From the NCBI GenBank assembly GCA_003990745.1, contig RBNI01000010.1:1-64000 (forward strand): a DNA stretch of 64,000 nt, given 5' to 3'. The DNA is from Jimgerdemannia flammicorona (Eukaryota > Mucoromycota > Endogonomycetes > Endogonales > Endogonaceae). The notes under the pieces are model-generated. The model was not told the origin of the DNA and ran no database searches. It saw nothing but the letters and a program-made list of their open reading frames with translations. Shown one piece after another: positions 25,570 to 53,105 of this stretch. The position numbers and the translations under genes are program-made. Every line of letters starts with the position of its first letter. The first letter of the stretch is position 1.

Positions 25570-28500
25570 TTATTTGTAAAAATCGATTTGGTTGAAAACT
25601 TGCCTGGCAGGAAGAACTTTTGCAGGAGCCACCTGGTCTCCAATTTCCGACTTTGAGCTTTCATAGAAACTGATCTCGGACTCTGAAGAGGGGGTCATAG
25701 GATTCGCTGAGGCTTCGGTGTTACTGTACGGCCAAATATATTGAGCTATCGCTGTCTCTATGCCTTCAAGATCCTGCAATACTTCGTCAATGGTCGGTCG
25801 CATTTCAGGATAAGTGTTCCAGCATCTCATGTAGATATCGGAATACTCCTTTGGTGTTTCAGGGATGAGCTTTTCGCGCAATCCAGGGGCGGCATCTTCG
25901 GGTGGATTCATTGCATCTCCTCGAGGGCGACTTCTTGAAGTAAGTCGCCATAGAAGTGTTCCGAGGCTGTATATGTCGGATTTTTGCGTGTAAAGTACAA
26001 TAGTGTTCTTCAATACTTCAGGTGGGAGATATTTAATCTGTCCTTGAATATGATCATCATATTTTTTGAAGTGTTCCACAGTGTCGCTTATACCGAAATC
26101 AATGATCATTGGATTGGAATAGTCTGTATGGAGAAACACGATATTTCCTGGGTGCAAGTCATTGTGAATCAACCCCGCATTATGAACCACTTGCAAACTG
26201 CGGGTAATTTCTGTAGCAATCCGCCACACCTTTGACCAGGAATTGGGCGGAGACTTTTTGAGGAGTTGTGCAAGATCACCACCCGCAGCGTAGTCCATCA
26301 CCAGCATATAACATCCGGCTTTATCGTCCTTTGACATTCCTATGACTGTTGGCGTTGCTGAGTGACCGGATTTGTTGCAGAGCTGAAGATATATGTTTAC
26401 TAGTAGCTGTTACGACAAGAAACAAGTTTATGATATAAATTAATTGTAAAATTAAACCTTCCAGCTATAAGATGAAAATTAAAATATACCTCATTTCGCA
26501 ATTGGTTATCAAAAATGTTACTCTCTTTCAATATCTTCAGTGCAACAAATCTTCTGTCGTTCTGACTATCATTCACTGTGGCTTTGTGTACAGTTGCAAA
26601 TGCACCTTCGCCCAACTTTTCCATCAGTGTCAATTGGTCGTAAGGTATCCAAACAATGCAAGCGGCAAGTTCAACCATCTCTAGCATGTTCAAGCACTCC
26701 AAGAGCCTATTCTGGTCACTAGGAAATTTGGGTTTAAGCTTCGACAGGGTATTGTAATCCATTGTCTTGAGAATATCTTGAATCCGATCAAAGATGTTTG
26801 TGGCTTTTGTCGACGTGCCAATTTGGGCAGGAGGCAGAAGTCTAGACACTATCCGTTTAAACCCAGCATATATACAACATAATGAGCTGTATCCCATCAA
26901 GCAGCCGGAAACAATAGATTACAATTGTAAAATACCTCTGAGATTGAACGTAATGGTCGCGTTTCGTTTCAGAGCCTCACCAAGGGTGCGGACGTTCTTG
27001 CCACTTATGTTATTCTCTGAAATCGAAAAAGGGAGGGATGAGTGAAAACGCACAGGGCGTGAACAGGGGCCCATCTAGTAGATATAAAAACAGGTCTCCT
27101 GTTCTAATATACCAAAAATATCAAGCGTTGTCAGGGTTATGTTCTGCATCAGAGATTCGGTCAGTGCGCGTGCTCCCATATCGCTAATGTTGGTGTCTAA
27201 AGATGGATAATGGATGGATAAGAAACATGCCCGGGTCATGACGGGAACTCGTTGCACAGTTGAATATTAAAATTTACAAAGTTCTAACATACTATTGAGA
27301 TTCAGTTTGGTCAGGGCCGTGCTCATTTTCAGAGAGTTGGCCAGAGCAATTGCACCTACATCGCCAATTTTGTTGCCTGACAATAAATAGATATATGAGA
27401 CAAAACCCAATATCAGCTGGAACTCACCATCACACAGCTGAAATAAAAATTTTACACACTTTTAACAAACCTTTGAGATTTAACATGAACAACGTCGTGT
27501 TGTTCTTTAGAGATGCCGCCAGTGCGCATGCCCCCTGCGCGCCAATATTGTTGGCTAAAGTTAAACAGAGGATAGATAATAATATAAGTGGGACGGATGA
27601 AAAAGCGGCAAACAACAGTTCGCACAGATCTAACTTACATTGGAGATTAAGCATGGTCAGGGACGTATTCATCTTCAAACACGCGGCAAGTACGCGTGCT
27701 CCCTCCACGCCAATGTCGTTGCCTGAAGATATACAGAAAATGGATGAATAAAATAAATTAAAATGTGAACTGGATTTCTTCAAACACCTGCAATCAACAT
27801 TTCACATAGTTACAACATACGAAAAAGTTTCAACGTGGTCAAGGTCTTGTTTAGCTTCAGCGATTCAGCAAGTGCGCGTATTCCTTTGGGACCGATCTTG
27901 TTGGCTGAAAATGAACAGACGATTGGTCACTAAATTCAAGCAAGTGGTGAGCCGGATCTCATCAAACATTTGCAAGCAACAGTTGTCCAAGTTCAAACTT
28001 ACAATTGAGATTCAGTGTGGTCAGAGTCGTGTTCTGTTTCAGAAGCTCCGCAATTGCACATGCTCCCAGGACGCCGACATTGCTGGCTGAAGATGATCAT
28101 CAGATAGGGGAACAAAAACATATAAAATGCGAGCTGGAACATTTCACATACTTCTAACATACCTCGGAGATTCAGGGTCGTCAGCGTCGTGTCGTTATTC
28201 AAGGATTTGATCAATCCATGGGTTTTCTCGTCACCAGTTCTTTTGTCTATATATAAAGTGAGGCTGACAGTTAGCTCTATTCAGTACAAATTATGTCACT
28301 AAACAACCAGATCAAACTTCTGATACAGAAATATTGAATATCATTATGAATCTTATTTTAAAATATAACTTTCGCTTTTTTAATATGAATTCTAAGAGTA
28401 AAGACCATAAATCATCACTATGATTTTGACAGCACGAACCTGCAAGTTTACCAAGCCACATATCTAAATTAGGCTTTTGATGGGTGCTGGCGGTCAATGC

Positions 28501-30435
28501 TTCTTGCAGCGGGGAGGGTGTTTGGGGAGTGTTAACGGTAAACTTTTCGGACTGCAGGGAGAGCGTTTGCGGGGTGCTGACGGTCAGCGCTTCCGGCTGT
28601 ATGGCGGGCAGTTGGGTGGTGTTGGCATTCAACGTATCCAGCGTTTGGGTGGTGTTGGTGATCAGCGCTTCTGGCTGCGTGGAGGGCATTTGGGTGTTGG
28701 CGGTCGGTGCTTCCGGCTGCGGGGAGGGCGTTTGGGGAATGTTGGTAGTCAACGCTTCTGAGCGTGAGATGGACGTTTGGGAGATATGGACAGTCAATTT
28801 TTCCAGTGAGAGGGAGAGCGGTTCGTGAGTATTGGTGGTCAATGCTTCCAGCTGCGGGGAGGGCGTTTGAGGGGTGTTGGCAACAATTGCTTCCGGCTGC
28901 CGGGAGAGTGTTTCGGGGGTGTTGGCGGTCAAAGCTTCCGGCTGCGGGGAGGGCGTTTGGGGGTTGCTGACGGTCAACGCATCCGACTGCGGGGAAGGCG
29001 TTTCGGGAGTGTTAGCGGTCAACACTTCTGGCTGCGTGGAGGACGTTTGAGAGGCGATGACGGTCAACGCTTCTGGCTGGGAAAAGGACATTTGGGAGGT
29101 GTTGGCGTTCAACGCTTCCACCGGCGGGGAATGTTGCCTACAAGGTCGTGGCGGGAATAGGGGCTCTTCGTCATAGGAAGAAAAGAGGCAATGCTGGGTT
29201 GATGAACAAATAAAAGAGTCAAACCGACAGATTGCGTCAGCGTCATACGCCCGCTATGTATTGAATTGCTCCTGAAAATAAAAAAAGGGTGTGTTTGCAA
29301 AGGATGATAAGACCTACTTCAAGCAGTTCGCTGGCGGAAGCACGCTGCGAATAATCTGGTTTCAAACATCGATCAACGAAGTCCATCAGCAAGTCATTCA
29401 TATTTCGGGGATAATGTGGCCGACCTTGCTCGATGATCTTTCGCTTAAGCTAATTTGAAGTGTAAGAATATAAAATTAAATCCATTCTGCGACAAACGAC
29501 AGGTTTCGACAAATGAAATTTTAAAAACCAACCTTTCCCTTCTCTAGGTGGTCATCTTCGTAGGGCGCCTTGCCGAAGTTGAGAATCTTGAGGACGACGA
29601 TGCCGAGTGCCCAAATGTCGGCTTTTTGATTGATGAACTTGCCTTCACAGACTTCGGGGGCCCAAAACAATATGTCGCCAGCCTCTTCAGATGACGGTTT
29701 CACAATAGGTTTCAAGGAGCTGAAGCCGAAGCCACCTGATTGTGGGAAGAGGAAAAGGATTAGAATGTGCGAGGCACGTGGTAACGACGTTTGTGGGAGA
29801 GGCAAGGTAATCACCGATCACGATGGTGTTGTCTTCGCCAAGGAAGAAATTTTCGCATTTGATATCGCGATGGATGTAGCCATGCTTGTGGATTTCCACG
29901 AGACCTGACAAGAGCTGTGGTATTTGTACGGCCAGGATGGATGAAGCACAAATTATTTAGGGTAGCCCCACAACGCCACGCAGCACGCACAATATACCAA
30001 CTAAATACAACGAATACAAAGCACTAAACTGACCCCTTTGAGGATGGAGACCATTTGGGACAAAGTGACCCAATTGTCTATGCAGTACTGTTGCAGGGTC
30101 CCGCCGTTGCAGTACGGTGTCACGAGGAAGACGCAGCCATGGTAGATGTAGATGCTGTGCAATCGCAGAATATTTTGATGTTGTCCACATTTGGCCATGG
30201 TGATGATTTCGCTTTCAACGAGCTTCTCGTCCTTGCTCCCCTCGATAATCAGGTACTTTTTTATGGCTACGTTCTGGCGTGTGCCGCCTGACTCGTTGTA
30301 GTGGTACACGTTACCCTGTCCCGAGGGACATGTGGGGTTTATGGCGCTGAACCCGCTATAAATGAGCTGCGGGTCGGAGAAGTGTTTAGACACGCCGTCT
30401 AACTTGCGTGCCATTAATGATTCAAGCACCGACAT
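25570..30435 (-). CDS. Gene A: kinase - LRR array - kinase protein, 15 exons
   Basis: Exons (minus strand): 30034-30435, 29815-29914, 29533-29735, 29318-29449, 28440-29193, 28163-28246, 28003-28086, 27821-27904, 27639-27722, 27471-27554, 27293-27376, 27113-27196, 26936-27016, 26490-26848, 25570-26406. Total 3456 nt, in frame, 1151 aa. Residues ~30-279 form an STE20-like kinase domain: VAIK Lys59, YIHRDIK near 147-153, FWAPEV, DIWALG, but DFG reads GFG. Residues ~280-530 are a linker of 15-residue Ser/Thr/Pro repeats. Residues ~530-753 are eight RI-type LRRs. The C-terminal ~390 residues form a TKL-like kinase with GEGAFATVHKA, VALK, HNDLHPGN, IDFGIS and PPE, all apparently competent. No signal peptide or membrane segment is evident, so it is probably cytosolic. 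Phase continuity and exon lengths shared with gene B support the model; the start ATG is the first in exon 1. A receptor or signalling role is inferred. Confidence 0.82.
26936..28246 (-). repeat. Exon-intron repeat array encoding 8 LRRs (gene A)
   Basis: Seven 84-nt exons and a final 81-nt exon, each encoding one LRR of the form N-x-I-G-x-x-G-A-x-A-L-A-x-S-L-K-x-N-x-T-L-x-x-L-x-L. All introns are phase 1 and 76-98 bp. Donors are mostly GTATGTT and the sequence before each acceptor is similar (TTCATCTTCAG type). The genomic unit of about 180 bp (exon plus intron) is itself repeated, showing growth by tandem duplication. Confidence 0.88.
28478..29121 (-). repeat. 45-bp coding minisatellite (15-residue repeat) in gene A linker
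   Basis: About 14 imperfect units of 45 bp encode the consensus EALTANTPQTPSPQP. One unit is a residue short and one is extended. Gene B has the same linker exon but only 325 nt in all and no clear array, so the repeat expanded in A (or collapsed in B). The Thr-Pro/Ser-Pro content suggests a disordered, possibly phosphorylated spacer between kinase 1 and the LRRs; that is inference. Confidence 0.88.
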
Positions 30436-30660
30436 GGTCCTTTATGAAATTTTCCAATGAATGTCTTCACAGAGGCGTGAATTTGAGCGTCTAAAAATGT
30501 CAAAAAAGTGACAGTCCGCAGTGGGTGGCGAAAAAGATCACGTGCAATCATATCCTTAGCATGACTTTATGACGTCAGCGCGAGCTTAGAAATTGGGATA
30601 TACTGCGGCGAATGAATAATTTGAATTGTCCAATTTGTTAAAATAAATTCATTATGTTTG
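30436..30660 (-). promoter_or_regulatory. Putative promoter/5' UTR of gene A
   Basis: The segment upstream of the start codon keeps CpG and contains a perfect CRE/ATF-type palindrome TGACGTCA at 30570-30577 and an E-box CACGTG at 30539-30544, about 135 and 105 bases before the ATG. The word TTTCATAAA just before the ATG is shared with gene B. Binding is not demonstrated. Confidence 0.35.
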
Positions 30661-31380
30661 TATTATTTAAAAGAAATTATATATATTACCACAAGTTTAA
30701 TGTATAATATATTTTTAAAGATTACAATACTTAAATATATATCAAATTTGAAATAAATGAAAATATTATAACTAATAAATAATATTTTAATAACTTTATA
30801 AAATAATAATTAGATAAATATTTTAATTTAAAATGCTAATTGGTAATTTAATTAATATATTAATAAATACAGTAATTACAATATTTAATATTTAAAAAAT
30901 TATAAAGTAGATTTGACTTTAATATGTATAAGACTTATATTTTAAATAAATAATATAGATATTATTTAAGCTAAAAATAAATATTATAATAATTAATCTA
31001 AATTAGAAAAAATCAAAAGTTGGATATTTGATTATTGAATCTAAATCTAATTCCCAAATATAGTTAGTAGCAACTCTTAACAATGTTATTATCAATAATA
31101 TGATTTCTAATTAATAACATATAACTTAGCTAATATATAGTTTGTAAACTTCTATAAATAGATATAATTATATCAAACTCACTTATTCTTACTAATAACT
31201 TTAAAGAGTTATAAAGACTAAGAAATTAAAATAAAGAAATTTGCTATTCTTTTTAAATTAAACTTTTACTATATTATAACTTAATATCTATTGACTATTA
31301 ATTTAAGACAAATTTCTCACTTTTAAGATATATAATAAATAACTGATATTACTATATAAAATCTCTTCAAAATAACTAGA
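30661..31380. other. AT-rich intergenic sequence
   Basis: Extremely AT-rich, CpG-poor and without open frames or recognised repeats. It separates the gene A promoter from the decayed minus-strand gypsy element. Confidence 0.6.
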
Positions 31381-36103: not shown

Positions 36104-37439
36104 TGTGACAAACCAAGATGTATCACCCAGATTATACATTAGATAATGTGAACAATTAGTCAGATGACATGAACACACAGCATAGTAACCAGCAACCATT
36201 GCTGCAGAAACCATATAAATAGCCAGACTACCAGATAGGATATATCTGTACAGAACCTGCACACCTGTACAGGACCTGCACACCTGTACTGGACCTGCAC
36301 AACTTGCCATAAGTAGCAAATCTATAGTTAGCCACATAGTAACCAGATAGCAACCAACTTGTATAAATTACCCCAGAGACAAGAGTGAATAAACCTCAGT
36401 CCAAAATTGAAGCAAAAGACAAGTCTGCTTACCACACTTCGAGAGGAACTCTACAGCTACTGCTAGGAGATTGTGAGCTTATTTCCCCACTCCACTCCAC
36501 TTTCCAATATAAAGAATGAGTCCGTTTTGAAGAAGAAACCCTTGGTTCACTTGCCAGATAAGCCTGAAGAATCCCAGTTTGCTGCCAAGTTCAAGGAAGA
36601 ACTTTGCCGCCATTTCCCAGTTATCCGCCGTATCCCCAGAAGAGCCCGCCTTTCTTGCCACAAGCCAGTCTTTCTGATGCAACTTCACAGTGGAGCCAGT
36701 CTATGACATAACCCCGTGTAAACAAAGCCAGTCTTTGACATAACTTGCCAAGAATCCAAGTTATTTCCCAGAAAATTCGCGACATCCGAGTTATCCGAAT
36801 TATCTGTGCCATCCAAATAGTATTCCCAGTTGAAGCTGATTCAGAAGAATCCGCACCATCCAAGTTATCTACGTCAATCCGAGTTATCTGTTGTTCCTAG
36901 TGAGCCCGAGTTATTGAGTTATCCGCTGTCAGTATTATTCCCAGAAGAAGAATCCACGCCATACTATTCCCAGTGAGCCAAATCGAGTCATCCGCCAAAT
37001 CCATATAAGGAATATCGCCAAGATCATCCTGCATAAGGAATCCCCTCGTGCTACACAAGATCGTCACGCAGAAATCGCATAAGGAGAACCACTAAATTGC
37101 CAGACCGTCATGCACAGAGATCATCGCACTACACAGAAATCACCCGCTACTCAAGAAGGAAACCACACATGCTACACACGAAATTCTGCCATTCCCAGTT
37201 GACCCAAGAAGGAAACCCGTTCACACACGCAAATCGCCGCTACACCCAGAGAACTGTCCCAATAAGGAAATCACCAGAATTGCTTGCAGATATCCAGCTT
37301 GACTATTATACCACTAAACACCAAGGACCTCAGGAATCTTAGAACATTTTGTTGCTTTTGACAAAGTAACTGGGGGCTCAAGCCAAACTACATCAACCCC
37401 CAACCTTGTAATTTGCCTCCATTGAGCTGGCATGTTACA
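36104..37439 (+). repeat. 5' LTR of gypsy copy 2 (1336 bp)
   Basis: Starts TGTGACAAACC and ends ATGTTACA. The middle holds many copies of words related to CCGAGTTAT and AATCCGC. Compared with the 3' LTR it has an additional block at about 37040-37165 and one more CACACCTGTAC unit near 36.27 kb, and more CpG-to-TpG/CpA changes. Confidence 0.92.
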
Positions 37440-37441
37440 TT

Positions 37442-37458
37442 TGGGGGCTCAACTGGGA
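37442..37458 (+). other. Candidate primer-binding site
   Basis: TGGGGGCTCAACTGGGA lies 2 bases after the 5' LTR, the normal place for minus-strand priming, and its complement ends in CCA as a tRNA would. I could not assign the tRNA. The first 11 bases recur inside the LTR at 37371-37381. Confidence 0.65.
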
Positions 37459-38857
37459 AGATTTCAAAATCGACATGACTTTTCAGCTCACAAGAACCCA
37501 CAGTCAAACTGGATACATTTGACCCAACACCAACCTCTGCCACCACAGGAGAACCAGTTATTACCAGCATTTGGACAGGAAGAGAAGTAATTACTTCAAG
37601 ACTTGCCAATTACCCAGTATCAGAAGGATCCCAACCAGAACCAGAAGGCAGTGCAGCCCAAAATCCCCAACCAGATCAACCAGACAATACAGACAGCCCT
37701 GCTAGAGATTTTGGAGAACTTGCACAAGAACTAGAAGATCTTATCACACGAACCCAACACTTTACAGCCAGACACCCCACACCAGTCCACTAATCTCACC
37801 AATAGAACCCCTACCACAACCCCTTGAAGAACCGGAAGTAGCTCCTACAAGAATACCTAGGCCTATTTCACTCCATCCAAGGACCAGAACACCATCCTCA
37901 AGATACCCAAGTACCCCTATTTCTAGTGACAGTTCAGAAAGTGAATCAGAATCAGAATCTGAACCTGAACCAGAATCAGAAGAAAGTGACAATGAAATGG
38001 CCACCTCATTGCCAACCTTTGCAGGATACCCAGAGGAAGACCCCAGAGAATTCCTTGACAGAATTGAAGGAATTGCAGCCTTGAGGAATCTCTCAGATAA
38101 AAGAAAAGTTGCCATCTACAAAGCTCAGCTCAGAGAACCAGCCAGAGGAATTTTCCATTGAACAGCAAACAACCGCGATTCAGAACTAGCAAGACAGATA
38201 CAAGCAGCAATGTCTGATGAACTAGAATATGAGACCATGGTCCACTAGCTCATTGAAAAGTATACAGGAAATGAAACCCGCCACAAAGCTCAGAAATCCA
38301 TCATGGGGATGAAGATGAATCTTGGAGAATTACCCAGAGCCTTCTTCACAAGAATCCAGAAGAGAATGCATTCTGCCAGGTTCAATGCCACCAACCAGGA
38401 CATCATAGGTCCAATGACCTTCATGAATGGAATTCCCCCAAATATCACCCAGCATGTCTATACCCTAGGCATCAGAAGGTCTGAAGAGCAAGTAGATGCA
38501 GCTCAAGGATTCTTCAATATCAGACAAGGAACTACTTGGAGTGATCATGATAAGAAAGAAGATAAAGAAGACATCCTGGTCAAAGCCCTACAAGGACTCC
38601 TTCAGGAACAAGAAAGATCTGAAGAAAGAAGACCAGCCAAGGAAGGAAAGAAGGACAGAAGCGAAATCTAAGACCTCAGCTCCAAGTTAGACCAGCTGGT
38701 TGGACAGATTGAGAAACTCACCACATGCGAAAATTGGAGCTACTAGGACAACAGAGGATACCCATCACAGAGGAGCCAAGGTTATCCACCAAGAGATAAC
38801 AGAAGTTACCAGCAAGAAGAAAGAAGGTACCCTGTCTGAGACAGAGCTCAAGTCCAA

Positions 38858-38899
38858 TGCTTCCATTGTGGACAATTCGGACACTATGCCACTGAATGT
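38858..38899 (+). other. Gag CCHC zinc knuckle (copy 2)
   Basis: Encodes CFHCGQFGHYATEC, a perfect CX2CX4HX4C nucleocapsid knuckle, which in retroelements binds the genomic RNA. All four ligands are intact. Confidence 0.93.
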
Positions 38900-41223
38900 A
38901 AAAACAAAAGAAGTGACCAAAGGGACTCAGAACCACCAAACCGAAGGAATGACACTCAGTACAAGAAGACTGAAGCCCATCCTGTTGAAGATTTCGAGGA
39001 AGCAAGCAACAGTGAAGACTATAGTGACCTAGACTTGTACTCTACCAAGGTTACCACCCGAAAAACAGTCTACCCAGCAGAGAAAAGAAAGAGACCTATG
39101 GGAAGGCCATCCAGAAATGTCAGCAGAAGAATGATTCAGGAAGAAGATGAAGAGCATGAGGAGGAACAGGTAGAAACACCTCCCTGAACTCCCTCACCGT
39201 TTGTGCCCGAAACAAATGAGCTGCCACCAGAAGATGAAGAAATGGAACAAGAATGGGAACCTATACCCCTGAAGCCCAAGAAAAAGTACTCTCCAAAGAC
39301 CATACCCAGAGACATCTACAATGAAGCCTGACAGAAGATTCAAGAGATCAAGATAGAAGTCCCTCTCCTACAGTTCCTGCAACTGATACTAGCTGGAGTT
39401 CAAAACAAATTGTTGAGAACAACAAGGTCTAGCACTGGCCAAGTCCCAATCCCACAGCAAGAACCAGCTTCCATCCCTGTCCAAGCAGCCAAAAGACATG
39501 TCAGCACCTACTTACATAGAGATATTGGAGGACAAAAAGCAAAAATCCTTATAGACACAGGAGCAGCTATCTGTGTCATTGCCAAACGATTCTTGGACAC
39601 CCTCCAATGGCCCATTGATGGACCATCCAACCTCAGCATCATAGTAGCAGATGGAGCCCGAACTCAACCCCTTGGAGAAGTACGAAACATCTCCATTTCT
39701 CTGGGACACATTCAGTTCTCCATTCCCAAAGCTGTTGTCACAGAAGCTGTCACCTATGACATGATTCTTGGCACCAACTGGATGAAGGAAATGAATACAG
39801 TTGTTGATATTGGCCAACAAGTACTCAAGTTTGACTATCGAGGCAAGAAGTACAGAGTTAAGGTGACCAGCTATGAACAATCAAAGAAGAAGAAGAAGGT
39901 CACAATTCAAGAAGAATATGCCAGCAGTGAAGAGTCTACTACAGAAGAGAAAGAAGAATCTGAAGATGGAAATGATCCCAGACTCAATTCCCAAATCAAC
40001 CTGGTGGATGACAGACCAGAAGACAATGTGTGGGCCAAGAATACCATCCCTATCACCATTGGAGCCATTACAGGAGAAATCAAAGGATGCCCTACATGCC
40101 TCAAGAGATACAGGTGTCCCGAGCACTCCTCCAAAATTATGGGAACAAAGAAATCGCCTGGCACAGCCTGCCCAGAGTGTAGAAGAAAGAAGAAGAAATG
40201 CAGACATGTTTCAGAAACACCTGCAACTGAAGCTGCAGAAGTACAAGCGATTTGGGGTCAAGAATCATCCAAGGAAGAAGAAACTTCTAACCAAGAAGTT
40301 CCTGAACAAGAAGCACCCAATGAAGAAGAGGTCCCCGAACTCATTCCCTGAGATAACCCTTGCTGGACACCACTTGAAGACAATGACCCCTGGAATATAG
40401 AAGAAGGACCCAGTACAATTACTATTATTCCCAAGAAAGAAACCCACCAAGAGAAAGCTTTTCAGCTAGGAAGATATCCACACCAAATGGTCTTCCACTC
40501 TCCCTGAGACTACTGCTACCAGTGTCATCTGTTGGACCAACAAGAAAGACAGAGACCCCAGAGACCAGAACCCCCAACTACTCTTGCACAGTCCACCATC
40601 TTTCAAGAAGTCACCACAAGGTTATAAAGTTGATTTAGGGGACAAGGCTTCTTCACCTGAACAGAATATACCCCTTGTCTACCCTTCCCCCAACCTATGA
40701 TCAAGATGGGTACCAATTTCCAAGACAACAAGAGATAAATAGCCAGGAACATCATTTTCGAGCAATGGGATATTGCAACCATGAGAGACATCCTGACTGC
40801 CGAGACTGCAGACATCAGAAGATTCACCTCTGTTATGATGTTGCAGTGCATACTTTGAAGAAAGGAGATAATTGAAGCCAGATCCAAAAAAGCCAGATTC
40901 AAAAAAGCCAGACCAAGAAGCCAGGAAGAAGAATCCTCAAGATCTACAATTTGGGAGAAGATATCCTAGCTCTCATCAGACATGCTACCAGCCAAGGATG
41001 GGCAGAAGATGCCGCCAACTTCATGGAAGCCCTTAATCCTATAGGAAGGAGGGGAATTAATTACCTCTGAGACCCCTCTACTGGAGCCAGATGGCCACAC
41101 CTCAACCTTAGAGCTTGGAGGCTTTCTGCTAGTGGAGCTTCAGCCTTAGGAAAGTCCAAACTCAGCAAGGATATTGCCCCATATGCCCTGCTGCACCCCA
41201 AGGCCAAACCCCCGACCAAAACC

Positions 41224-41610
41224 CACCCAGAGGATGTAGGATATGATCTTCACAGCCTGGAGGATGAATCTATCAAGCCTGGAAAAACCTTCATGGTCAG
41301 AACTGGATTAGCTATGCAGCCACCACAAGGAGCTTATATTCAACTGACCTCAAGGTCCGGACTTGCCAGACAAGGGATAACTGTAGAAGGAGGAACCATT
41401 GACCCTGGATATATAGGTGAAATCAAGGTTATCCTACACAACAGCAGTGCAGAATGGCACCAAATCATTAGAGGACAGAAGATTGCCCAAGCAGTCTTCA
41501 TGAAGGTCAAGACCCCACAGTTACAGGAAGTCTCTGAACTAACTGAAGGAACAAGACAAGCCAAGGAATTTGGAAGTTCTGACAGGAAAGAGATATATAT
41601 TCTTCAAGTC
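41224..41610 (+). pseudogene. dUTPase domain within gypsy polyprotein (copy 2)
   Basis: All five dUTPase motifs appear in order: GYDLHS near 41240, SRSGLARQG near 41355, GGTIDPGYIGEIKV near 41390 with the catalytic Asp, GQKIAQAVF near 41475, and a C-terminal P-loop-like FGSSDRKE near 41570. A trimeric dUTPase hydrolyses dUTP to dUMP and PPi, keeping uracil out of newly made cDNA. The domain itself reads without a stop here, but the surrounding polyprotein is broken. It is also recognisable in copy 3, so it is an ancestral part of the family. Confidence 0.88.
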
Positions 41611-41990
41611 AATTACCTCAAGAGGAATGCTCCCCAGCAAGTGTACCAGCAACCAGTCAGACTGCACAAGAATCTCATCCTGGAGTCCAGAGAACAAACT
41701 ACCTTCGAAATCTTTGTACCACCCGACCCCAGAAACCTCTTCTTTGAACCCAAGGAAGATATCCCACACCTGGACATAGAGGGACATACATTCCCTGACA
41801 AGATGAATCCAGTACACTTCCAAGGAACCAACCAAAGTTGGGAGACCATCATCTTGCCAAAAGGAACCATCATAGGACATCTGGTGCCTTTTCTCAACCG
41901 AACTCATAGGGAAGTTTATGAACTAAACCTATCAGGAAATGGCAAAAGGTCTCAGAAGAAAGGAAAGGCCCCTCTGCAACCCAGGAGACA

Positions 41991-43304
41991 GTGAAGCCTT
42001 CCACCAACATTGGAGAAGAACTGACACCTCAACAACAGCAACAACTAGTAGAACTTCTCAACCAATATCAAGACATCTTCACTACCGATTATGGCAACCT
42101 GCCATACAATCCATCATATCACCACAGTATAAATACAGGAAATGCAACACCTATCTGGCAGAAACCCTATAGAATACCCCATCACTTAAAAACATTTGAA
42201 AAGGAGTACATCCAAGAACTCTTAGACAATGGAGTCATCCGACCCTCTACCAGCCCTTGGACCAGCCCTATACTTATTGTACCAAAGAAAGGAGGATGGA
42301 GACTCTGCATGGATTACAGAAAACTCAATTCAGTCACTGAAAAAGATGCCTATCCTTTGCCCAGAATCAATGACCTTTTGGATCAGTTACAAGATGCCAG
42401 ATACTTCAGCAGTATGGACCTCTTCGCAGGGTTCCATGAGATCCCCATGGACCCCAAGGACATTCAAAAGACAGTCTTTCTTGCTCTAGAAAAACTGTTT
42501 GAGTACCTTCGAATGCCCTTTGGACTTTGCAATGCACCCCCCACCTTCCAAAGGATGATGAATTCAGTCTATGCCCCCTTGATCCACTACTGCCTAATTG
42601 TATACATGGATGATTCCAACATCTACTTAGCAAATTTTGAAGAACACCTGTACCACCTAGAGGAATTCTTCAAACTCACCTATAAGAACAACTTGAGACT
42701 GAATGCAAAGAAATATTACTTTGGAAAACAGAAACTTGAATTCCTTGGATTCATAGTTTCGAAAGAAGGAACCCATGCAGACCCCAAGAAAACTGGGAAG
42801 ATCAACAATTGGCCAGTACCAAAAACTCCAAAAGAGACACTATCATTTCTGATACTAGTATCCTACTACAGAAGGTTTATCAAGAACTTTGCTCAAATTG
42901 CTGCCCCAATCCGGATCCTTCTCAAGAAAGGAGTGCTATTCAAATGGACAGAATCACAAGGAAAAGCCTTCAAAGAACTCAAAAACTGCATGATTACAGC
43001 ACTAATCCTTGTGCGCCTCAATCTACAGAAGCCATTCATCTTGTACACAGATACCTCTAAAGATGGCCTTGGAGCAGTTCTAGCCCAAGAAGGACCCAAT
43101 CAACAGCACCATGTGATAGCTTATGCAAGCAGAGCTACCAATCAGCAGCAGATGAACTATGGTAGCACCAAACTGGAATGCCTTGCAGTCATATGGGCGG
43201 TCACCCTGTTCAAGCATTACCTCATTGGAAAAAGGTTCACCCTGATCACAGACCATGCAGCCCTCAAATGGTTATTCAACTGCAAGGAACCCACTGGAAT
43301 CTAA
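41991..43304 (+). CDS. Gypsy reverse transcriptase-RNase H, copy 2 (open, partial pol)
   Basis: An uninterrupted 437-codon frame. RT motifs: [45 protein letters not shown] and the catalytic VYMDDSN near 42.61 kb. RNase H: LYTDTSKDGLGAVLAQ near 43.04 kb, a Glu in LECLAVIWA near 43.18 kb and TDHAALKWLF near 43.26 kb. It starts on GTG of GTGA overlapping the upstream TGA; no ATG is near, so expression probably needs a -1 frame change from the dUTPase frame. A stop at 43302-43304 cuts off the rest of RNase H/integrase, which continues in copies 1 and 3 as coding sequence. Confidence 0.88.
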   Translation: MKPSTNIGEELTPQQQQQLVELLNQYQDIFTTDYGNLPYNPSYHHSINTGNATPIWQKPYRIPHHLKTFEKEYIQELLDNGVIRPSTSPWTSPILIVPKKGGWRLCMDYRKLNSVTEKDAYPLPRINDLLDQLQDARYFSSMDLFAGFHEIPMDPKDIQKTVFLALEKLFEYLRMPFGLCNAPPTFQRMMNSVYAPLIHYCLIVYMDDSNIYLANFEEHLYHLEEFFKLTYKNNLRLNAKKYYFGKQKLEFLGFIVSKEGTHADPKKTGKINNWPVPKTPKETLSFLILVSYYRRFIKNFAQIAAPIRILLKKGVLFKWTESQGKAFKELKNCMITALILVRLNLQKPFILYTDTSKDGLGAVLAQEGPNQQHHVIAYASRATNQQQMNYGSTKLECLAVIWAVTLFKHYLIGKRFTLITDHAALKWLFNCKEPTGI

Positions 43305-44475
43305 GCCTGCTGGATCCTTATCCTTCAGGATTACAAAATCACCATCATCCACAAAGCAGGGAAAGCTCACAACAATGTTGATGTACTTTCCTGCCAGCCC
43401 CAATGAACCAGAAGAAGGATGTCCCAAGGAACTACACCCTAAAGGAAGCTCCCCAGATGATCAAGGCACAAAAAGATCTCATCCATAAAGAACATCAGAA
43501 GGCCCATCAAGGACGGACAAGTACAGAAGACAAGATTCGAAAACTGTATCAACACTGGCCTCACCTCAGAACTTAAGTCCGAGACATCATCCAGAAATGT
43601 GACACTTGCCAGAAGTACCAAGGAAAGAAGAACTATTAAGCCCCTTTGCAACTGATTCCTCCACCTACTCAGAGATAGGGAGTAGATGTAATTGGACCTC
43701 TACCAGTTACACCAAGAAGAAACAAATATATCCTCGTATTTGTGGAACATCTGACCAAATGGCCTGAGGCTTTCCCAATGGAAATTGCAGATGCCTTAAC
43801 CATTGTAGGCCTCCTCCATGGACTCACACTCAGATATGGACCCCCAGAAGAACTCATCTCTGACCAAGGCACAGAATTCATCAATAACATAATCACAAGT
43901 TATGCCCGAATTCACAAGATCCACTTCAAAAGAACCACATCATACTACCCCCAGACCAATGGCATAACAGAGAGAATGAACTAGACTATCAAGAAAGGAC
44001 TTGCCCAAGTCAATCCTTACTAATTAGGACCTCTGCTTACCTGAGATCCTATGGGAAATTCGGAACACCCCTACTGCCTCTACCAAACAAAAGCCATTCG
44101 AAATGATGTTTGCCAAGAGAACCAGAACTGCTGATCATGAGAATCTTGGAGATCTCCTCAAGAAGGCAAAACAGTTATGTAATTAAGCCTGAGGACAGAT
44201 TATCAAAGCCCAAGAAAGACAAAAGAAGTACTATAACCAAAAACAGAAGGATCAGGAGATCAAGATTGGAGATCAAGTACTAGTTTGGAGAAGCATGATT
44301 GAAATAAATTTTGCCACCAAACTGGGAACCCAAATAGGAAGGACCTTATCTTGTACACAATATCAGAGGAACCAGCATCTATTTAAGAAGCATGGATAGA
44401 CAAACCCTCAGAACACTAGTACACATCAACCACCTCAAGATATACCTTTCCCCACATCATGAATCAGAGAGTTGA
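43305..44475 (+). pseudogene. Gypsy integrase, copy 2, broken
   Basis: Zinc-binding His pair (KEHQKAH) near 43.49 kb and Cys pair (CDTCQK) near 43.60 kb. The DDE core shows GVDVIGPLP near 43.68 kb, SDQGTEF near 43.86 kb and YYPQTNGITERMN near 43.95 kb, with all three acidic residues present. The C-terminal GPY/F-like part lies near 44.3-44.45 kb, ending LKIYLSPHHESES and TGA at 44473-44475. Stops and indels, such as TAG at about 43982, break it. Integrase inserts the cDNA into the chromosome. Confidence 0.85.
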
Positions 44476-44971
44476 CAACCGCCTTCAAACTCTTGTTCTC
44501 AGCTCATTTCAATCACTACCAGTTCCCCTACCCCAATTCCGAGAAGTCAATGGGAACACTCTCCAAAAGATCCAGATTCATCAAGAGAATCTTGTCCTGG
44601 CCAGACAGTTGCTCCAGGTCCACCAACTCCAGGCCCATTATGCAATTGAAGAACAATTGCAGAACCTCCCAGTCCCAGAACAAATATACATCAGAAATAC
44701 CACAGGACTATCAAGAAGAAATGCCACTGCTGCAAACAGGCTGTACACCCTTTATAAGCGAAACCCTGCAGCTCTGATGCAAGCACAATTCTCCTGGCAT
44801 GATGCACAAGGAATGAACCTAGCCACCTACTTGAGCATTGTCAATGCTGTTGAAATCTTATTCCCAGAAGAAGAAGAACCCTTGGAATGGAGTGACCATG
44901 GTACAGATGATGAAGATGACAGAACAGATATTGATACAGAAAATGCTTACCCATACTGGAATGATGACTAA
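44459..44971 (+). CDS. Gypsy ORF3, 170 aa, unknown function (copy 2, intact)
   Basis: An intact ORF from ATG to TAA that overlaps the integrase end by 17 bases in the +1 frame and stops about 40 bases before the 3' LTR. The N-terminal two thirds are Gln/Leu-rich and probably helical (LARQLLQVHQLQAHYAIEEQ); a middle block reads QGMNLATYLSIVNAVEILFP; the C-terminus is strongly acidic (EEEEP..., then Asp-rich, ending WNDD). There is no signal peptide or membrane helix, so it is not an obvious envelope protein. The same frame, start overlap and acidic tail are recognisable in copies 1, 3 and 4, and copy 1 has exactly the same 513-nt length. I recognise no family. Confidence 0.8.
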   Translation: MNQRVDNRLQTLVLSSFQSLPVPLPQFREVNGNTLQKIQIHQENLVLARQLLQVHQLQAHYAIEEQLQNLPVPEQIYIRNTTGLSRRNATAANRLYTLYKRNPAALMQAQFSWHDAQGMNLATYLSIVNAVEILFPEEEEPLEWSDHGTDDEDDRTDIDTENAYPYWNDD

Positions 44972-44993
44972 AGGACAGTCTGGGGACAGACCA

Positions 44994-45011
44994 TCCTTTA
45001 GTGGGGGCTGA
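44994..45011 (+). other. Polypurine tract before 3' LTR
   Basis: The purine-rich TTTAGTGGGGGCTGA immediately before the LTR is the expected plus-strand primer. It is conserved in copy 1 and partly decayed in copies 3 and 4. Confidence 0.7.
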
Positions 45012-46212
45012 TGTGACAAACCAAGACATATCACCCAGATTATACATTAGATGATGTGAACAATTAGCCAGATGATGTGAACACACAACATAGTAACCAG
45101 CAACCATTGCTGCAGAAACTGTATAAATAGCCAGACTACCAGATAGGGTATATCTGTACAGGACCTGCACACCTGTACCAGACCTGCACAACTTGCCATA
45201 AGTAGCAAATCTATAGTTAGCCACATAGTAACCAGATAGTAACCAACTTGTATAAATTACCCCAGAGACAAGAGTGAATAAACCTCAGTCCGAAATTGAA
45301 GCAAAAGACAAGTCTGCCTACCACACTTCAAGAGGAACTCTACAGCCACTGCTAGGAGATTGTGAGCTTATTTCCCCACTCCGGTCCACTTTCCGATACA
45401 AAGAACGAGTCCGTTTTGAAGAAGAAACCCTTGGTTCGCTTGCCAGATAAGCCTGAAGAATCCCAGTTTGCCGCCAAGTTCAAGGAAGAACTTCGCCACC
45501 ATTTCCCAGTTATCCGCCATATCTCCAGAAGAGCCCGCCTTTCTTGCCACAAGCCAGTCTTTCTGATGCAACTTCGCAGTGGAGCCAGTCTACGACGTAA
45601 CCCCATGCAAACGAAGCCAGTCTTTGACGTAACTTGCTAAGAATCCGAGTTATTTCCCAGAAAATCCATGACATCTGAGTTATCCGAATTATCCGCGCCA
45701 TCCAAATAGTATTCCCAGTTGAAGCCGATTCAGAAGAATCCGCACCATCCGAGTTACCTACGTCAATCCGAGTTATCCGTTGTTCCCAGTGAGCCCGAGT
45801 TATTGAGTTATCCGCCATCAGTATTATTCCCAGAAGAAGAATCCACGTCATACTATTCCCAGTGAGCCAAATCGAGTCATCTGCCAAATCCGTATAAGGA
45901 ATATCGCCAAGATCGTTCTGCATAAGGAATCCCCTCACGCTCGCACTACACACGAAATTCTGCCATTCCCAGTTGACCCAAGAAGGAAACCCGTTCACAC
46001 ACACAAATCGCCGCTACATCCAGAGAACCATCCCAATAAGGAAATTGCCAGAATCGCTCACAGATATCCAGCTTGACTATAATACCACTAAACACCAAGG
46101 ACCTCAGGAATCTTAGAACATTTTGTTGCTTTGACAAAGTAACTGGGGGCTCAAGCCAAACTACATCAACCCCCAACCTTGTAATTTGCCTCCATTGAGC
46201 CGGCACGTTACA
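45012..46212 (+). repeat. 3' LTR of gypsy copy 2 (1201 bp)
   Basis: Starts TGTGACAAACC and ends ACGTTACA, followed by the CTAT duplication. It is CpG-rich for a repeat here and carries the same short-word array (CCGAGTTAT, GTTATCCGC) as the 5' LTR, but lacks about 135 bp present there. Confidence 0.92.
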
Positions 46213-46397
46213 CTATAAATATTTACAATCTAATAAAATAGAGAATAAAAAAATTTACTTATTAATACTATTTCTATATATTACATTAAGTATATTTTTA
46301 TAATATTATATCTAATGAAATAAATGGAAATATTGTATTAATTTTAAATATTGACCTATTGAAAAATAATATATTATACCAAACAAAACTAATACTA

Positions 46398-46437
<40 letters not shown>

Positions 46438-46775: not shown

Positions 46776-46794
46776 TTTGGTACCCTTGACAGTA

Positions 46795-49700
46795 TTATGC
46801 CGCTGCCAATATAAGAATTTTAGATTTAGCAGGAAAACAAAAACGGTCATACACAATAACATAAATTGTATTTTTGTATATGTCAATTGGGTACGAAACT
46901 TGCCTAATTTCCAATTGAGACGTTGTGTGATACCGACTGCTGGATCCTTCAACGAACATGAACTCGGACACTCCAGAGCCCATCTCGGCTTTGATTTTTT
47001 CGAAATGGGCCAAGGCCTCAGGGATGTTGTCCAGCCAATCTGCATTGGCAAGGTTTAACTCTATACTATAAAGATTATCTAACACATTGTCAATGGCCGG
47101 TCGCATCTCGGGGTTAAGGTTCCAGCATCTCTTGTAGATATCTGAATATTCGGGTGGCGTGCCAGGGATGGGTTCTTCGCGCAATCCAACGGGGGCGGCA
47201 TCGGGAGGATGCATTGCATTTCTACGAGGGCAGTGCCTTGCAGTAAGTTGCCACAAAAGTGTTCCAAGGCAGTATATGTCAGATTTTTGCGTGCAAGTTC
47301 TAATAGCCTCCTTGAATACGAACGCTTCCGGTGGGAGATACTCAATCCGTCCATAGATGTAACCACCACGTTGACCCAAATGTTCCGGAGTATTGCTTAT
47401 GCCAACATCAATGATAATGGGATTAGCCTCGTCGGTACCGAGAAACACAATGTTTCCTGGGTGCAAATCGTTGTGTATCAATCCTGCTTCATGAATCAGT
47501 TGCAATCTGCGAGTGATCTCTGTCGCAATCCGCAACACTTTCAACCAGGAATTTGGTGGGGAATTCTCAAGAAGTTGCGTAAGGTTACCACCAGCTGCAT
47601 ATTCCATTATAATAATATAATGGCTGGTTGAATTCTCCATTGATAATCCTATGATTGCAGGCATTGCTACTCTACGGCTTTTGTTGCAAAGCTGGAGATA
47701 AATGTTGACTAATAGCTATTTTCAACAAATCAAGCGATTGCAATATAAATTAATTGTAAATATTTAACTTTGCAACTCTGGCCGGATAATTACCTACCTC
47801 ATTACGCAGTTGATCTATTACTATGATGCTATCTTTTAAAATTTTCAACGCAACCGATTTTCCGTAGTTCGGACCACTGTTTACTACAGCTTTGTGTACA
47901 GTGGCAAATCCCCCTTCGCCCAACTTTTCCATCAGGGTAAATTGGTTGTAAGGTATCCAAACCATGAAAGCTGCAAGTTCAACCAATTGTAGCTTGTCCA
48001 GACACTCCAAGAGCTTGCTCTCGTCATTAGGAAACTTGAGTTTAGGCGTTGACATAATGCTGATATCTAACTTTTTTAGCATATATTGAATCCGATCAAA
48101 GGTTTGTGCGGACTTTGAGGATATGCCAGATAGAGTGCGAGGCAAAAGGCTTGGGACTGGGAAATACACAAATATTGTAAGCTGTTTTCCGCTACGCGGT
48201 TTAAAATTTTAGAAGATACATAGTTCAAACATACCTTGGTAGGTCAAGTTCCTTTGCAGAGCCACTGTTAGGAAGCTTACGTACGTACGACTGATATTGT
48301 TCCCTAAAATTGAACAAGGAAATGATTAGAGAATATACAGGGTCGCGATCTAGAGACCATCAGACACTTGCAAAAAATGGGTCTTGCATTTTAATATACC
48401 CAAAATATTAAGCTCTTTCAGTGTAAAGTTCTGTATCAGAGATTCAACCAGTGCACGTACTCCCACATCACTGACGTTGGTACCTAAAGATGAATAAAGG
48501 ATAGTAAGCAAACATGCTTATATCATAAACTGAAACATATCACACAGCTGTAAAAAATAATTTCTACAGTTCTAACATACAATTGAGACTTAGCTGAGTC
48601 AAGGTCGTACACCACTTCAGTGACTTGGCCAAAGAACCTACTCCGACATCGCCGATTTTGTTGTCTGAAGATGATAAGATATAGATGAACCAAACATCCA
48701 ATATCAGCTAGATCTCATTATAGTTATATAAAAAACATTTCACACTGTTCTAACATACGATTGAGATTCAACGTAGACAGGGTCGTATTTTGCTTCAGAG
48801 ATTCCGCCAGTGCGCGTGCTCCCTCTATACTGATGTCATTGGCTGAAGATGAACAGAGAATAGATAATCAGGAATAAATAAGTTGTGAAAGCAACCCATG
48901 CACAACTGCAAATAATTTTTCATATAAATCAAACGTACATTCAAGTATAAGCACCGTCAGAGTCGCGTTTTTCTTCAGTGACTCGGCCAGTGCGCGTGCT
49001 CCATTAGTGCCGATTTTGTTGCCTGAAGATAACAGAAAATAGACGATCGCATTTTCATGGGCTGGAACTCATGATGCAGTTATATTCAAAATTCATGTAT
49101 TTTTGACATACATTTGAGATACAGCACGGTCAGGGTCGTGCTCGACTCCAGGGACTTGGCCAGGGCTTGAACACCTATATCACCGATTTTATTGCCTGAT
49201 ATATAGGAGATAGATTAGTTAACAATATAATGTCAGCTAAAACTTATCAGGGAAATAATAACAGAAGTTTAAAACATTTATAACATACGATTTAGATTCA
49301 GCTTAGAAAGGGCCATGTTTTCTTTCAGAGATTCCGCCAGTGCACATGCTCCCTTTATGCTGATGTTATTGGCTAAAGATGAAGAGAGGATAGATGCTCA
49401 AAAAATAAGAGATTGTAAACGGGAATGCATGGAACAGCTGCAAACAATTTTTCATACAGTTCAAACATACATTCGAGATTAAGCTTGGTCAGGGTCGTAT
49501 TCGTCTTCATAGACTCGGCCAGGACGAGTGCTCCTTCAAAGCCAATGTTGTTGCCTGATAATGGAAAGAAGGTGAATGAAAAAATGCAAAGATTGTGAAA
49601 CTGGTTTTCATCAAGCAGCTGCAATCAACAGTTCATACAATTACAACATACAAGCGAGTTCTAACGTGGTCAGAGTCCAGTTTTGCTTCAGCGACCCGGC

Positions 49701-51962
49701 CAGCGCACGCGCTCCCCTACCACCTATCATGTTGGCTGAAATATAACAATGGTTTGATGAACGGTGATGAGTTGGAGCTCATCGCGCAACCGAAAGCACC
49801 AGTTGTCACTGGTCATACGTACAATTGATCTTCAGTGTTGTCAAAGTTATGTTCTGTTTCAGAGACTCGGCAAGTACACATGCTCCATCAGCTCCAATAT
49901 TTTTGGCTGAAGATGAACAGAAGACGGTGGATCAAACACATTTATACAAGTTAGAATCAGCACACAGAAGCCAAAACCAGTTCACATACTTCTAACATAC
50001 CTCTGAGATTCAGCGTTGTCAGGGTTGTGTTATTCTTCAGGGATTCGATCAGTTCAAATATTTTTATATCACTGGCTCTTTTATCTGATTGTAAAGTGAG
50101 GATAACAGTTAGCTCCATTTTGGTGCAAATTATGTCTACAACAAAGATCCTCATGAAGATTTTGAATATGTACGAATCACATTTTTAAAGATAATTTTTG
50201 CATTTCTTAAATAATTTACGAGAAATGCCCACCGTGCTAACTAAAAAGAATGTTGCCAATGAAGTGCACCTATTAACTATAAGTCACCACTATAATTATA
50301 AAATCACATACCTGCAAATTCACCAATCTGCTCCTGGCTAGAAACATTGAATGCGTAGTCAGCAGATTTGAGCCAAATCTTAGCGGAGCTGTGGTCCGTG
50401 GACGACGGCGGTGACGCCTCTCGGGTGAGAGATTCGTTGAATACACCGGGCATTCCATTGATGTCCGATAGGGCGGTGGGGGATAGCGTGGAGGAGGTGT
50501 TGCCAGTCGACGCTTCCCCATGGGGGGAAGGCAATTCGGAGGTGTGGGCGGTCATCGTTTCCGACTGCGAGGAAGGTTGTTGACGAGGTCGTGGCGGAAA
50601 TAGGGGCTCTTCGGCATAGGCAGAAAAAAGGGAATGCTAGGTTGATTATCGAGCAGAATGAAGGAAAACAGAGAGAATGTGTCAGTGTCAGTGTCATATA
50701 CCTATTACGGCTTTGGAATCGTTGCTGAAATATAATAAATGGGAATGTCATTGTAAAGAATGGAAATGACATACTTTAAGCAGATCGCTGGCAGAAGAGC
50801 GATGCTCAGGATCTCGTTCTAAGCATTGATCAATGAAATCTGCCAGCTGGCTATCCAAATTCTCGGGATAGCATGGTCGACCTTGCTCAATAATTTTTCG
50901 CTTAATCTAATATTAAACATAATAATCATATAAAATTAATTCAATGATATATATATTGCAACAAGGTAAAATTTTTCATATGTAAAATTGAAAACAACAA
51001 ACCTCTTCATCTTCCAAGTTATCATCTTCGTAGGGGGCCTTGCCGTGGTTGAGCATCTCGAGAACTACAATGCCTAATGCCCAAATATCAACCTTAAGAT
51101 CGATGAGCTTGCATTCACAAATTTCCGGAGCCCAAAATAATGTGACGCCAGCCTTTTCGACTGACGAGTCTACAGTAGGCGTCAAAGAGCTGACGCCGAA
51201 GCCACCTGAACAGAGATAAAGCAAGTTGGGGTGGAGGAGGGGGATTAGAATGTGCGAACCCTGTCGGTATGACATAATTGGACAAAGTATTTACCGAGCA
51301 TGACGGCGTTGTCTTTGCCAAGGAAGACGTTTTGGCTTTTGATGTCGCGATGGATGTAGCCGTGCTTGTGAATTTCCGAGAGTCCTGACACGAGCTGCGA
51401 TATTTGTATATAGGAATGATGGGAGAGCCACATATTACTTTAACTATTACATGCAGTCCCAACATCCCCACGTAGCACGCACAAATGCCAACTCGACGTC
51501 GCAAGGAGAACTAAGCTCTATACAGACCCTTTTGAGGATAAAGACCATTTGCGGTAAAGCGACACAGTTATCCAAGCAATGCTGGTACAGTGTCCCACCG
51601 TCGCAGAACGGCGTCACTAGGAAAACGTAGCCATTGTAGATATAGATGCTGTGCAGTCGCAGAATATTTGGATGTAATGCGCATTTGGCCATGGTGAATA
51701 TTTCGTTTTCGACTAGCTCCGTGGAGATTCCAAAGTTATTTGGGACGTAATTCTGCTCGTTTGTCAGGTATTTCCTTATTACAACGGTCTGGCGGGCGCC
51801 GGCGGCCTCACGGCAGTAGTACACGTCGCCCAGTTCCGAGGTCCATGTAGGTATTTCGGCGCTGAGGCCGTCATAAAAGTCCTCCGGGTTAGAATAGTAA
51901 GTGGGGACGCCATCGACCCAATGATCCAACTTGGGGACGGACATCGGTGCAAACGCGGACAT
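46795..51962 (-). CDS. Gene B: kinase - LRR array - kinase protein, 18 exons
   Basis: Exons (minus strand): 51528-51962, 51295-51394, 51003-51205, 50775-50906, 50312-50636, 50001-50084, 49823-49906, 49652-49735, 49471-49554, 49289-49372, 49112-49195, 48939-49022, 48759-48842, 48581-48664, 48400-48483, 48235-48303, 47798-48156, 46795-47715. Total 3384 nt, in frame, 1127 aa. Exons 2, 3, 4 and the first kinase-2 exon have the same lengths as in gene A (100, 203, 132, 359 nt). Kinase 1 has HRD but GFG instead of DFG, and VVIR where A has VAIK. The linker is 108 codons. Eleven LRRs follow. Kinase 2 has GEGGFATVHKA, VALK, HNDLHPGN and DVG in place of DFG. The C-terminus extends about 25 residues past the position of the gene A stop. 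Same orientation as A, 21 kb away: a tandem paralogue separated by transposon insertions. Function is inferred as signalling or sensing only. Confidence 0.82.
48235..50084 (-). repeat. Exon-intron repeat array encoding 11 LRRs (gene B)
   Basis: Ten 84-nt exons and a final 69-nt exon, each one LRR, separated by phase-1 introns of 87-98 bp. Introns also resemble each other, with GTATGTT-type starts, a shared ACAGCTG-containing middle and CATCTTCAG-type ends. The first repeat (DKRASD...) and last repeat (NNISRTY...) match the first and last of gene A, so the three extra repeats were gained or lost internally. Confidence 0.88.

Positions 51963-53065: not shown

Positions 53066-53105
<40 letters not shown>

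Follow-up and report, generated by a model that had tools for sequence, protein, structure and literature searches.

Two kinases in one polypeptide are known from several systems, with which we compare two genes, A and B, encoded in the window (positions 1 to 64,000 of contig RBNI01000010.1, in the 134.8-Mb, 7754-contig genome assembly of the fungus Jimgerdemannia flammicorona). In these genes a STE20-type kinase (K1), a linker, an array of leucine-rich repeats (LRRs), a segment here called PRE and a tyrosine kinase-like (TKL-type) kinase (K2) follow one another. Plant tandem kinase proteins such as Yr15/WTK1 combine a kinase and a pseudokinase, as do, by motif, four members of the family described below, and KinI of WTK1 is non-RD; in the same excerpted text, 92 plant tandem kinase proteins are without additional conserved domains (PMC6170490), whereas here an LRR array stands between the kinases, K1 is of PAK type and the host is a fungus. 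In JAK (JH2-JH1) an N-terminal pseudokinase regulates the C-terminal kinase, and in obscurin (PK1-PK2) an N-terminal pseudokinase interacts with the C-terminal kinase in a protein with a long disordered linker (PMC10129394, in excerpt), but the kinase families differ from those found here.

Fungal NOD-like receptors (NLRs) resemble genes A and B in having a repeat solenoid as the proposed sensor, but a Pfam scan gives no match to NACHT or NB-ARC in A or B, nor to the Roc-COR region by which ROCO/LRRK proteins separate LRRs and kinase. To our knowledge, neither JAK nor obscurin has an LRR array separating its kinases. An earlier sequence-only reading of this DNA, which described A and B, stated that fungal NLR-type receptors usually use WD40, ankyrin or TPR repeats; this agrees with the excerpted survey of fungal NLRs, which reports WD, ANK and TPR but no LRR motifs and refers to a previous study to the same effect (PMC4986451), but it does not cover protein P0003 of Mortierella alpina, which has NACHT (27.4 bits, cut-off 26.7) together with LRR_6, so that the survey's statement of no fungal LRR sensors, as worded in that excerpt, is already strained.

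The kinase-LRR-kinase order itself was found in no protein among the matches listed in three protein searches (the best 120 of 170, 120 of 131 and 120 of 1112 matches; 8000, 2783 and 4001 candidates scored, the 8000 being a cap; the third search limited to proteins of about 220-695 aa), with domain order checked in few of them, which is in keeping with the earlier statement that it is not a standard fungal form. Among the entries listed in searches of open-licence PMC papers, none has a title or abstract opening that describes a K1-LRR-K2 architecture. LRRs precede a kinase in P0007 and P0014, and both domains figure in the domain lists of P0064, P0119 and P0195.

A six-gene family with one domain order

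Gene models were built from exon anchors, GT-AG splice sites and phase. Both loci read on the minus strand, gene A from 30435 to 25570 (15 exons, 3456 nt, 1151 aa) and gene B from 51962 to 46795 (18 exons, 3384 nt, 1127 aa), in frames without internal stop and with GT-AG introns only (Table 1). The exon numbers and protein lengths of the sequence-only reading were thereby reproduced, and its description of a STE20-type kinase, a disordered linker, ribonuclease inhibitor (RNI)-type LRRs and a TKL-type kinase in a single frame is borne out by the models, by Pfam and by the PDB matches of two paralogues (C2255, C5521). The hidden Markov model check that it proposed for the spliced proteins returns all three expected families: Pkinase (1.6e-73 in A, 3.3e-66 in B), PK_Tyr_Ser-Thr (2e-71, 7.7e-61) and LRR_6 (8.6e-26, 3.4e-38), with Pkinase matching two stretches in each protein.

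What had been described as a pair is a family of six within a much larger LRR-TKL family. A search of the whole genome with the K1 domain of gene A (125 of 125 candidates scored) matches the first exon of six genes, A, B, C5521, C2255, C1957 and C3286, at 55-99% identity, the remaining kinases listed being at most 36% identical. Each of the four loci beyond A and B has a downstream kinase exon in the same orientation as K1 and the same order of K1, linker, LRR, PRE and K2; their models comprise 17 exons (1106 aa, C1957), 15 exons (1031 aa, C2255), 15 exons (1249 aa, C3286) and 18 exons (1199 aa, C5521). All six models close without a stop over 98 exons and 92 introns (65-227 nt, median 95), GT-AG throughout, and all six have the same intron phases: 0, 1, 0, 0 in K1, 1 from the linker through the LRR exons, and 0 before K2. 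LRR exons number 8 in A, C2255 and C3286, 10 in C1957, and 11 in B and C5521; 49 of the 56 are 84 nt long, exactly 28 codons, and the rest 69-87 nt.

The K1-LRR-K2 order in A and B is more than chance, because four further loci share it together with the intron phases and because selection on K1, LRR, PRE and K2 is purifying. In comparisons of the 15 gene pairs, the mean ratio of nonsynonymous to synonymous change (dN/dS) is 0.38 for K1, 0.36 for LRR, 0.49 for PRE, 0.38 for K2 and 0.72 for the linker, the fastest-changing part; dN is below dS in 15 of 15 pairs for each of the first four, at mean dS of 0.59-0.71, and in 14 of 15 for the linker. Within the LRRs, dN/dS (Nei-Gojobori, a ratio of means over position classes that we assigned) is 0.13 for core positions, 0.65 for strand-exposed positions and 0.40 for the rest, a pattern that fits a binding surface.

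The doubtful place in the models is the K1-to-linker junction, where gene A can also be read into a stop ('SELLEEQFNT*'). At all six loci a phase-0 donor follows the last K1 exon and an AG stands just before CAT or AAT; splicing at this common acceptor restores the kinase-end motif (HPFLSAYVEEPLFPP in C2255), which by eye is uninterrupted in a Mucorales relative (P0004) and is present too in a J. flammicorona kinase (P0022), behind an inserted stretch resembling a retained intron. Because the acceptor shared by the six loci rebuilds a motif that the outside relative P0004 has uninterrupted, the idea that the stop in A closes a K1 gene of its own was rejected. At the other junction the linker ends, at a similar place in all six genes, at a GT donor of phase 1, and an LRR exon opens in the same phase 65-227 nt further on; the intron of C1957, at 65 nt, is too short for a gene boundary, and in five of the six genes the first LRR exon is without Met. 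Taken together, these genomic features make it very probable that K1, linker, LRRs and K2 form one protein. That K1-linker and LRR-K2 are instead two adjacent, co-duplicated genes with separate proteins could be argued from the genomic basis of the models and from P0022, which is a kinase without LRRs, but the donor and same-phase exon common to all six loci, the missing Met and the occurrence of K1 nowhere else in the assembly at comparable similarity render this highly improbable.

Origin of K1 and the larger LRR-TKL family

By sequence, K1 belongs to the PAK/STE20 kinases: the top PDB matches of C2255 K1 are PAK4, PAK6 and STK24, and the relatives of gene A K1 among the protein matches listed are Mucoromycota PAKA-like kinases (P0004 of Apophysomyces, P0012 of Mucor lusitanicus, P0022 of J. 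flammicorona, BC938DRAFT_473417), which resemble K1 and the first part of the linker; P0004 and P0022, unlike the K1-LRR-K2 genes, have neither LRRs nor a second kinase. The CRIB/PBD domain of true PAKs was looked for in A and B with Pfam, which gives no PBD match. In a midpoint-rooted tree of the six K1 domains, P0022 and five Mucorales kinases (P0004, P0006, P0009, P0012, P0015), the six K1 domains group together (support 99/97); P0022 joins them at 100/100, and the five Mucorales kinases fall outside this grouping. Against residues 220-330 of the shortened P0022 query the C2255 linker is still 59% identical, and thus, by this comparison, part of the parental kinase tail (about 110 residues) came along into the linker. 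The source of K1 is likely to be a conserved Mucoromycota PAK-type kinase rather than an independent invention. Extra stretches of P0022 coincide by eye with three of the four K1 intron positions, and its gene model is without the DFG exon.

The DFG motif is kept in the five Mucorales kinases (sequences read) and in K1 of C1957 and C2255; K1 has GFG in A, B, C3286 and C5521. The K1 domains of A and C3286 keep Lys, alpha-C Glu and HRD/Asn, as do, with DFG in addition, those of C1957 and C2255, the only two in which VAIK Lys, HRD and DFG are all intact; the VAIK Lys is lost in B (VVIR) and the catalytic Asp in C5521 (HRN for HRD). GFG probably arose once on the branch that holds A, C3286 and C5521, since these three form one branch (100/98); the GFG of B may have arisen separately. 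The pseudokinase EphA10 likewise has Gly where the Mg-binding Asp would stand, but there the remaining kinase motifs are lost as well, whereas most are kept in K1 (PMC7586955, in excerpt). Because Gly replaces the DFG Asp in A and B and in four of six overall, and B lacks the VAIK Lys as well, K1 is probably a pseudokinase with a fold kept under constraint; K1 dN/dS is 0.29-0.50 in the six GFG-GFG pairs, and this purifying selection on GFG members would mean that K1 is kept as a fold. The sequence-only reading, which had spoken of two kinase modules, is to that extent not supported for K1 as a catalyst.

Judging by LRR_6 matches, unit length and PDB matches (ribonuclease inhibitor and NLRP-type LRRs for C5521), the LRRs are 28-residue RNI-like repeats of the ribonuclease inhibitor type. 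Behind them come PRE, a segment of about 60 aa, and K2, whose PDB matches in C2255 are the TK and TKL kinases EGFR, RIPK4, MET, MAP3K9 and RIPK1 and which in A is covered by the PK_Tyr_Ser-Thr match; we infer that it is a TKL rather than a TK kinase. K2 is non-RD in all six genes, the HRD Arg being replaced by Asn (HND) in five and by Gly (HGD) in one, and the catalytic-loop Asp and the DFG Asp are retained in six of six and the Lys of VALK in five. Non-RD kinases have been linked to plant immune receptors (excerpt of PMC6170490). The term 'receptor-like' finds no support in its membrane sense, which would call for the signal peptide and transmembrane helix of an LRR receptor-like kinase: by hydropathy, and with C3286 having a hydrophobic N-terminus, no 19-residue window exceeds 1.74, and the top windows (1.58-1.74) lie inside a kinase or PRE in all six proteins, which are probably cytosolic.

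A genome search with PRE-K2 finds at least 27 loci with at least 54% identity over all or part of the kinase, the six genes and C4876 included (125 of 336 candidates scored; the number is our own count of rows and a lower bound). Four loci beyond the six were fetched. C2623 has at least 14 upstream LRR exons of 84 nt (phase 1-1) and C614 at least 35 single-repeat LRR exons, each with PRE and an HND-type K2, and the K1 genome searches give no K1 match on the contigs of these two; C5456 has four LRR exons by strict count and runs off the contig end, so that its N-terminus is out of view. These three form a clade in the K2 tree (100/100) and share with the six genes the 84-nt phase 1-1 LRR exons, PRE and HND-type K2. 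A degenerate LRR-core pattern (at most two mismatches) has 1846 matches in the genome, which are matches and not genes, against 0 in the reversed control. On these comparisons the K1 fusion belongs, as a single branch, to a larger LRR-TKL family that is assembled from 84-nt exons of one repeat each, and from the linker donor and first LRR exon common to the six we infer that K1 joined an LRR-TKL gene once.

Related combinations occur in Endogone sp. FLAS-F59071. P0002 (BC937DRAFT_86469) has, like the genes described here, a PRE-like segment, a TKL-type kinase and RNI-type LRRs in one protein, but in reversed order (kinase, then LRR), without K1 and on a long branch in the K2 tree; P0121 has PRE and a kinase 51% identical over 97% of the query, but Peptidase_C14 (9.5e-6), a caspase-like domain, where the K1-LRR-K2 genes have LRR and K1. 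The PRE-TKL module has therefore been combined with different partners, the K1 fusion being one such combination. Combinations of both kinds, LRR-TKL and TKL-LRR, occur in this genome and in a relative. The usual catalytic Cys of the P0121 caspase-like domain, examined by eye, is presumably replaced.

The fourth fetched locus, C4876 (L041), is a copy of only the last LRR, PRE and K2 of the C1957 3' end, 99.6% identical over K2, and is either a recent truncated duplicate or a haplotype fragment. A genome-wide search for the LRR_6 family (150 of 322 candidates scored) gives 30 matches, none of them on the window contig (C10 of the assembly), and is too weak for single 28-residue exons; a first-LRR-exon pattern is uninformative, with 12 matches against 7 in the control. 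In three contigs (C5367, C2995, C1490) LRR_6 matches fall within open frames as long as 858-2403 aa, in contrast to the one-repeat exons of genes A and B; these are perhaps intronless LRR genes, or endobacterial contigs. NACHT was rejected as a partner of the LRR array, with three weak matches, one of them on an LRR contig (C228) but roughly 14 kb away and on the opposite strand, and the eight Peptidase_C14 matches in the genome include none shown to be joined to K2.

Candidate function and its alternatives

The explanation that we prefer, to which we give about an even chance, is that K1-LRR-K2 is a cytosolic LRR-TKL sensor in which a captured PAK pseudokinase acts as regulator or bait. In a single event, a copy of a conserved PAK-type kinase gene, including some 110 residues of its tail, would have been placed ahead of an LRR-TKL gene, and the fusion would have given rise to six paralogues. 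The protein would be soluble, with the LRR solenoid as binding surface, the non-RD, TKL-type K2 as output, and K1, its Mg-binding Asp mostly lost but its fold kept, as a pseudokinase with a regulatory or bait role; a partner or ligand that binds at the LRR/K1 end would release K2, which would then phosphorylate a downstream target. Solubility, ligand binding, the role of K1, activity of K2 and an immune or self-recognition role are all conjectural in this scheme. The size of the family, its exon-wise repeats, the shuffling of partners and reports that kinase and LRR genes have passed from such fungi to Mollicutes-related endobacteria (PMC10507103, in excerpt) suggest a role in recognising microbes or self.

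Several observations weigh against this explanation. In the K2 tree the six genes with the fusion do not come out as a single clade; K2 itself is altered in two of them (VVLR, Lys to Arg, in C1957 and a degenerate Gly-loop in C5521); and the N-terminus of C3286, unlike those of the other five, is hydrophobic (2.28 over 12 residues). Two of the six K1 domains keep DFG, Lys and HRD, so that loss of activity is not universal. Mean dN/dS exceeds 1 in no region, the linker being highest, and positive selection found no support in the 15-pair comparison. Searches of the assembly for a separate parental K1 gene (125 of 125 and 66 of 66 candidates scored) found none, which may reflect an assembly gap or loss and which, if the assembly is complete, weakens bait as a reading of K1.

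A narrower version of the preferred explanation, taking up its bait half, holds that K1 is an integrated decoy, mimicking a conserved PAK kinase attacked by foreign proteins (endobacterial, viral or from another fungus), with the LRR-K2 chassis sensing the tampering. Descent of K1 from a separate conserved kinase in the tree, the loss of the DFG Asp in four of six under a still constrained fold, a chassis that exists without K1 (C614, C2623) and the reported transfer of kinase and LRR genes to endobacteria (PMC10507103, as excerpted) all agree with it, but the parental kinase is not seen in the assembly, the attacking effector is hypothetical and K1 has no excess of amino-acid change, and we regard it as unlikely. 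Wider in scope, and quite doubtful, is an NLR-free internal recognition system of interchangeable 84-nt LRR exons and non-RD TKL kinases, with well over 1000 LRR units, in which the six K1-LRR-K2 genes would be the integrated-decoy branch and the captured PAK kinase a pseudokinase bait for invaders, such as endobacteria, or non-self fusion partners. Set beside the survey of fungal NLRs, which reports no LRR motifs (PMC4986451, in the part excerpted), an early-diverging fungus with a large LRR-kinase family from one-repeat exons, some members with a captured pseudokinase, would offer an independent case of plant tandem-kinase and integrated-decoy logic, and a testable entry to recognition of endobacteria or self by symbiotic Mucoromycota.

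A relay in which K1 is still catalytic, with GFG tolerated or in the DFG members only, and phosphorylates K2 in cis while the LRRs serve as scaffold could draw on the Lys, alpha-C Glu and HRD/Asn of A and C3286 and on the added DFG of C1957 and C2255; loss of the Mg-binding Asp in four of six, of the Lys in B and of the HRD Asp in C5521 makes it distinctly unlikely. The large family, the truncated, nearly identical copy C4876 and the degenerate motifs would also suit a recent and for the most part neutral by-product of LRR-TKL amplification that serves no dedicated function, but six long genes without a stop and dN below dS in every pair for K1, LRR, PRE and K2, at the mean dS given above, leave this improbable.

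Feature coordinates and surroundings of the genes

Table 1. Exons and domains of genes A and B, in window positions
Feature	Position	Strand	Remark
Gene A K1 exon 1	30034..30435	-	N-lobe of PAK-type kinase; start codon at 30435
Gene A K1 exon 2	29815..29914	-	catalytic loop HRDIKCEN
Gene A K1 exon 3	29533..29735	-	GFG replaces DFG; APE; F-helix
Gene A K1 exon 4	29318..29449	-	C-lobe
Gene A linker exon	28440..29193	-	K1 end (HCLFSSYDEEPLFPP), then low-complexity 15-aa (45-nt) repeats, e.g. QPEALTANTPETLSR
Gene A LRR array	26936..28246	-	8 single-repeat exons, all phase 1-1
Gene A LRR exons, 84 nt each	28163-28246, 28003-28086, 27821-27904, 27639-27722, 27471-27554, 27293-27376, 27113-27196	-	
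Gene A last LRR exon	26936-27016	-	81 nt
Gene A PRE exon	26490..26848	-	segment of ~60 aa, plus Gly-loop and VALK of K2
Gene A K2 exon and stop	25570..26406	-	TKL-type kinase, HND non-RD, DFG
Gene B K1 exon 1	51528..51962	-	VVIR replaces VAIK
Gene B K1 exon 2	51295..51394	-	HRDIKSQN
Gene B K1 exon 3	51003..51205	-	GFG replaces DFG
Gene B K1 exon 4	50775..50906	-	
Gene B linker exon	50312..50636	-	
Gene B LRR array	48235..50084	-	11 single-repeat exons, all phase 1-1
Gene B LRR exons 1-5, 84 nt	50001-50084, 49823-49906, 49652-49735, 49471-49554, 49289-49372	-	
Gene B LRR exons 6-10, 84 nt	49112-49195, 48939-49022, 48759-48842, 48581-48664, 48400-48483	-	
Gene B last LRR exon	48235-48303	-	69 nt, degenerate
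Gene B PRE exon	47798..48156	-	
Gene B K2 exon and stop	46795..47715	-	HND, DVG

The 45-nt tandem units of the gene A linker were not seen in the C2255 linker. A long terminal repeat (LTR) retrotransposon-like element occupies 36104-46212 of the window on the plus strand, with terminal repeats 92-98% alike and with aspartyl protease, dUTPase, reverse transcriptase and RNase H domains, and stops some 0.6 kb short of the gene B 3' end. A second element, 3' of gene A, is 76% similar to it (14636-23084 against 37202-45653); the elements are offset by 22.6 kb, nearly as far as the two genes (21.3-21.5 kb), and element and gene may therefore have been duplicated together. The window also holds two stretches resembling long interspersed nuclear elements (LINE-like), 1-5448 and 53104-58328, which are 71-74% alike; the open reading frames of the former have a reverse transcriptase match and an endonuclease match just above the cut-off.

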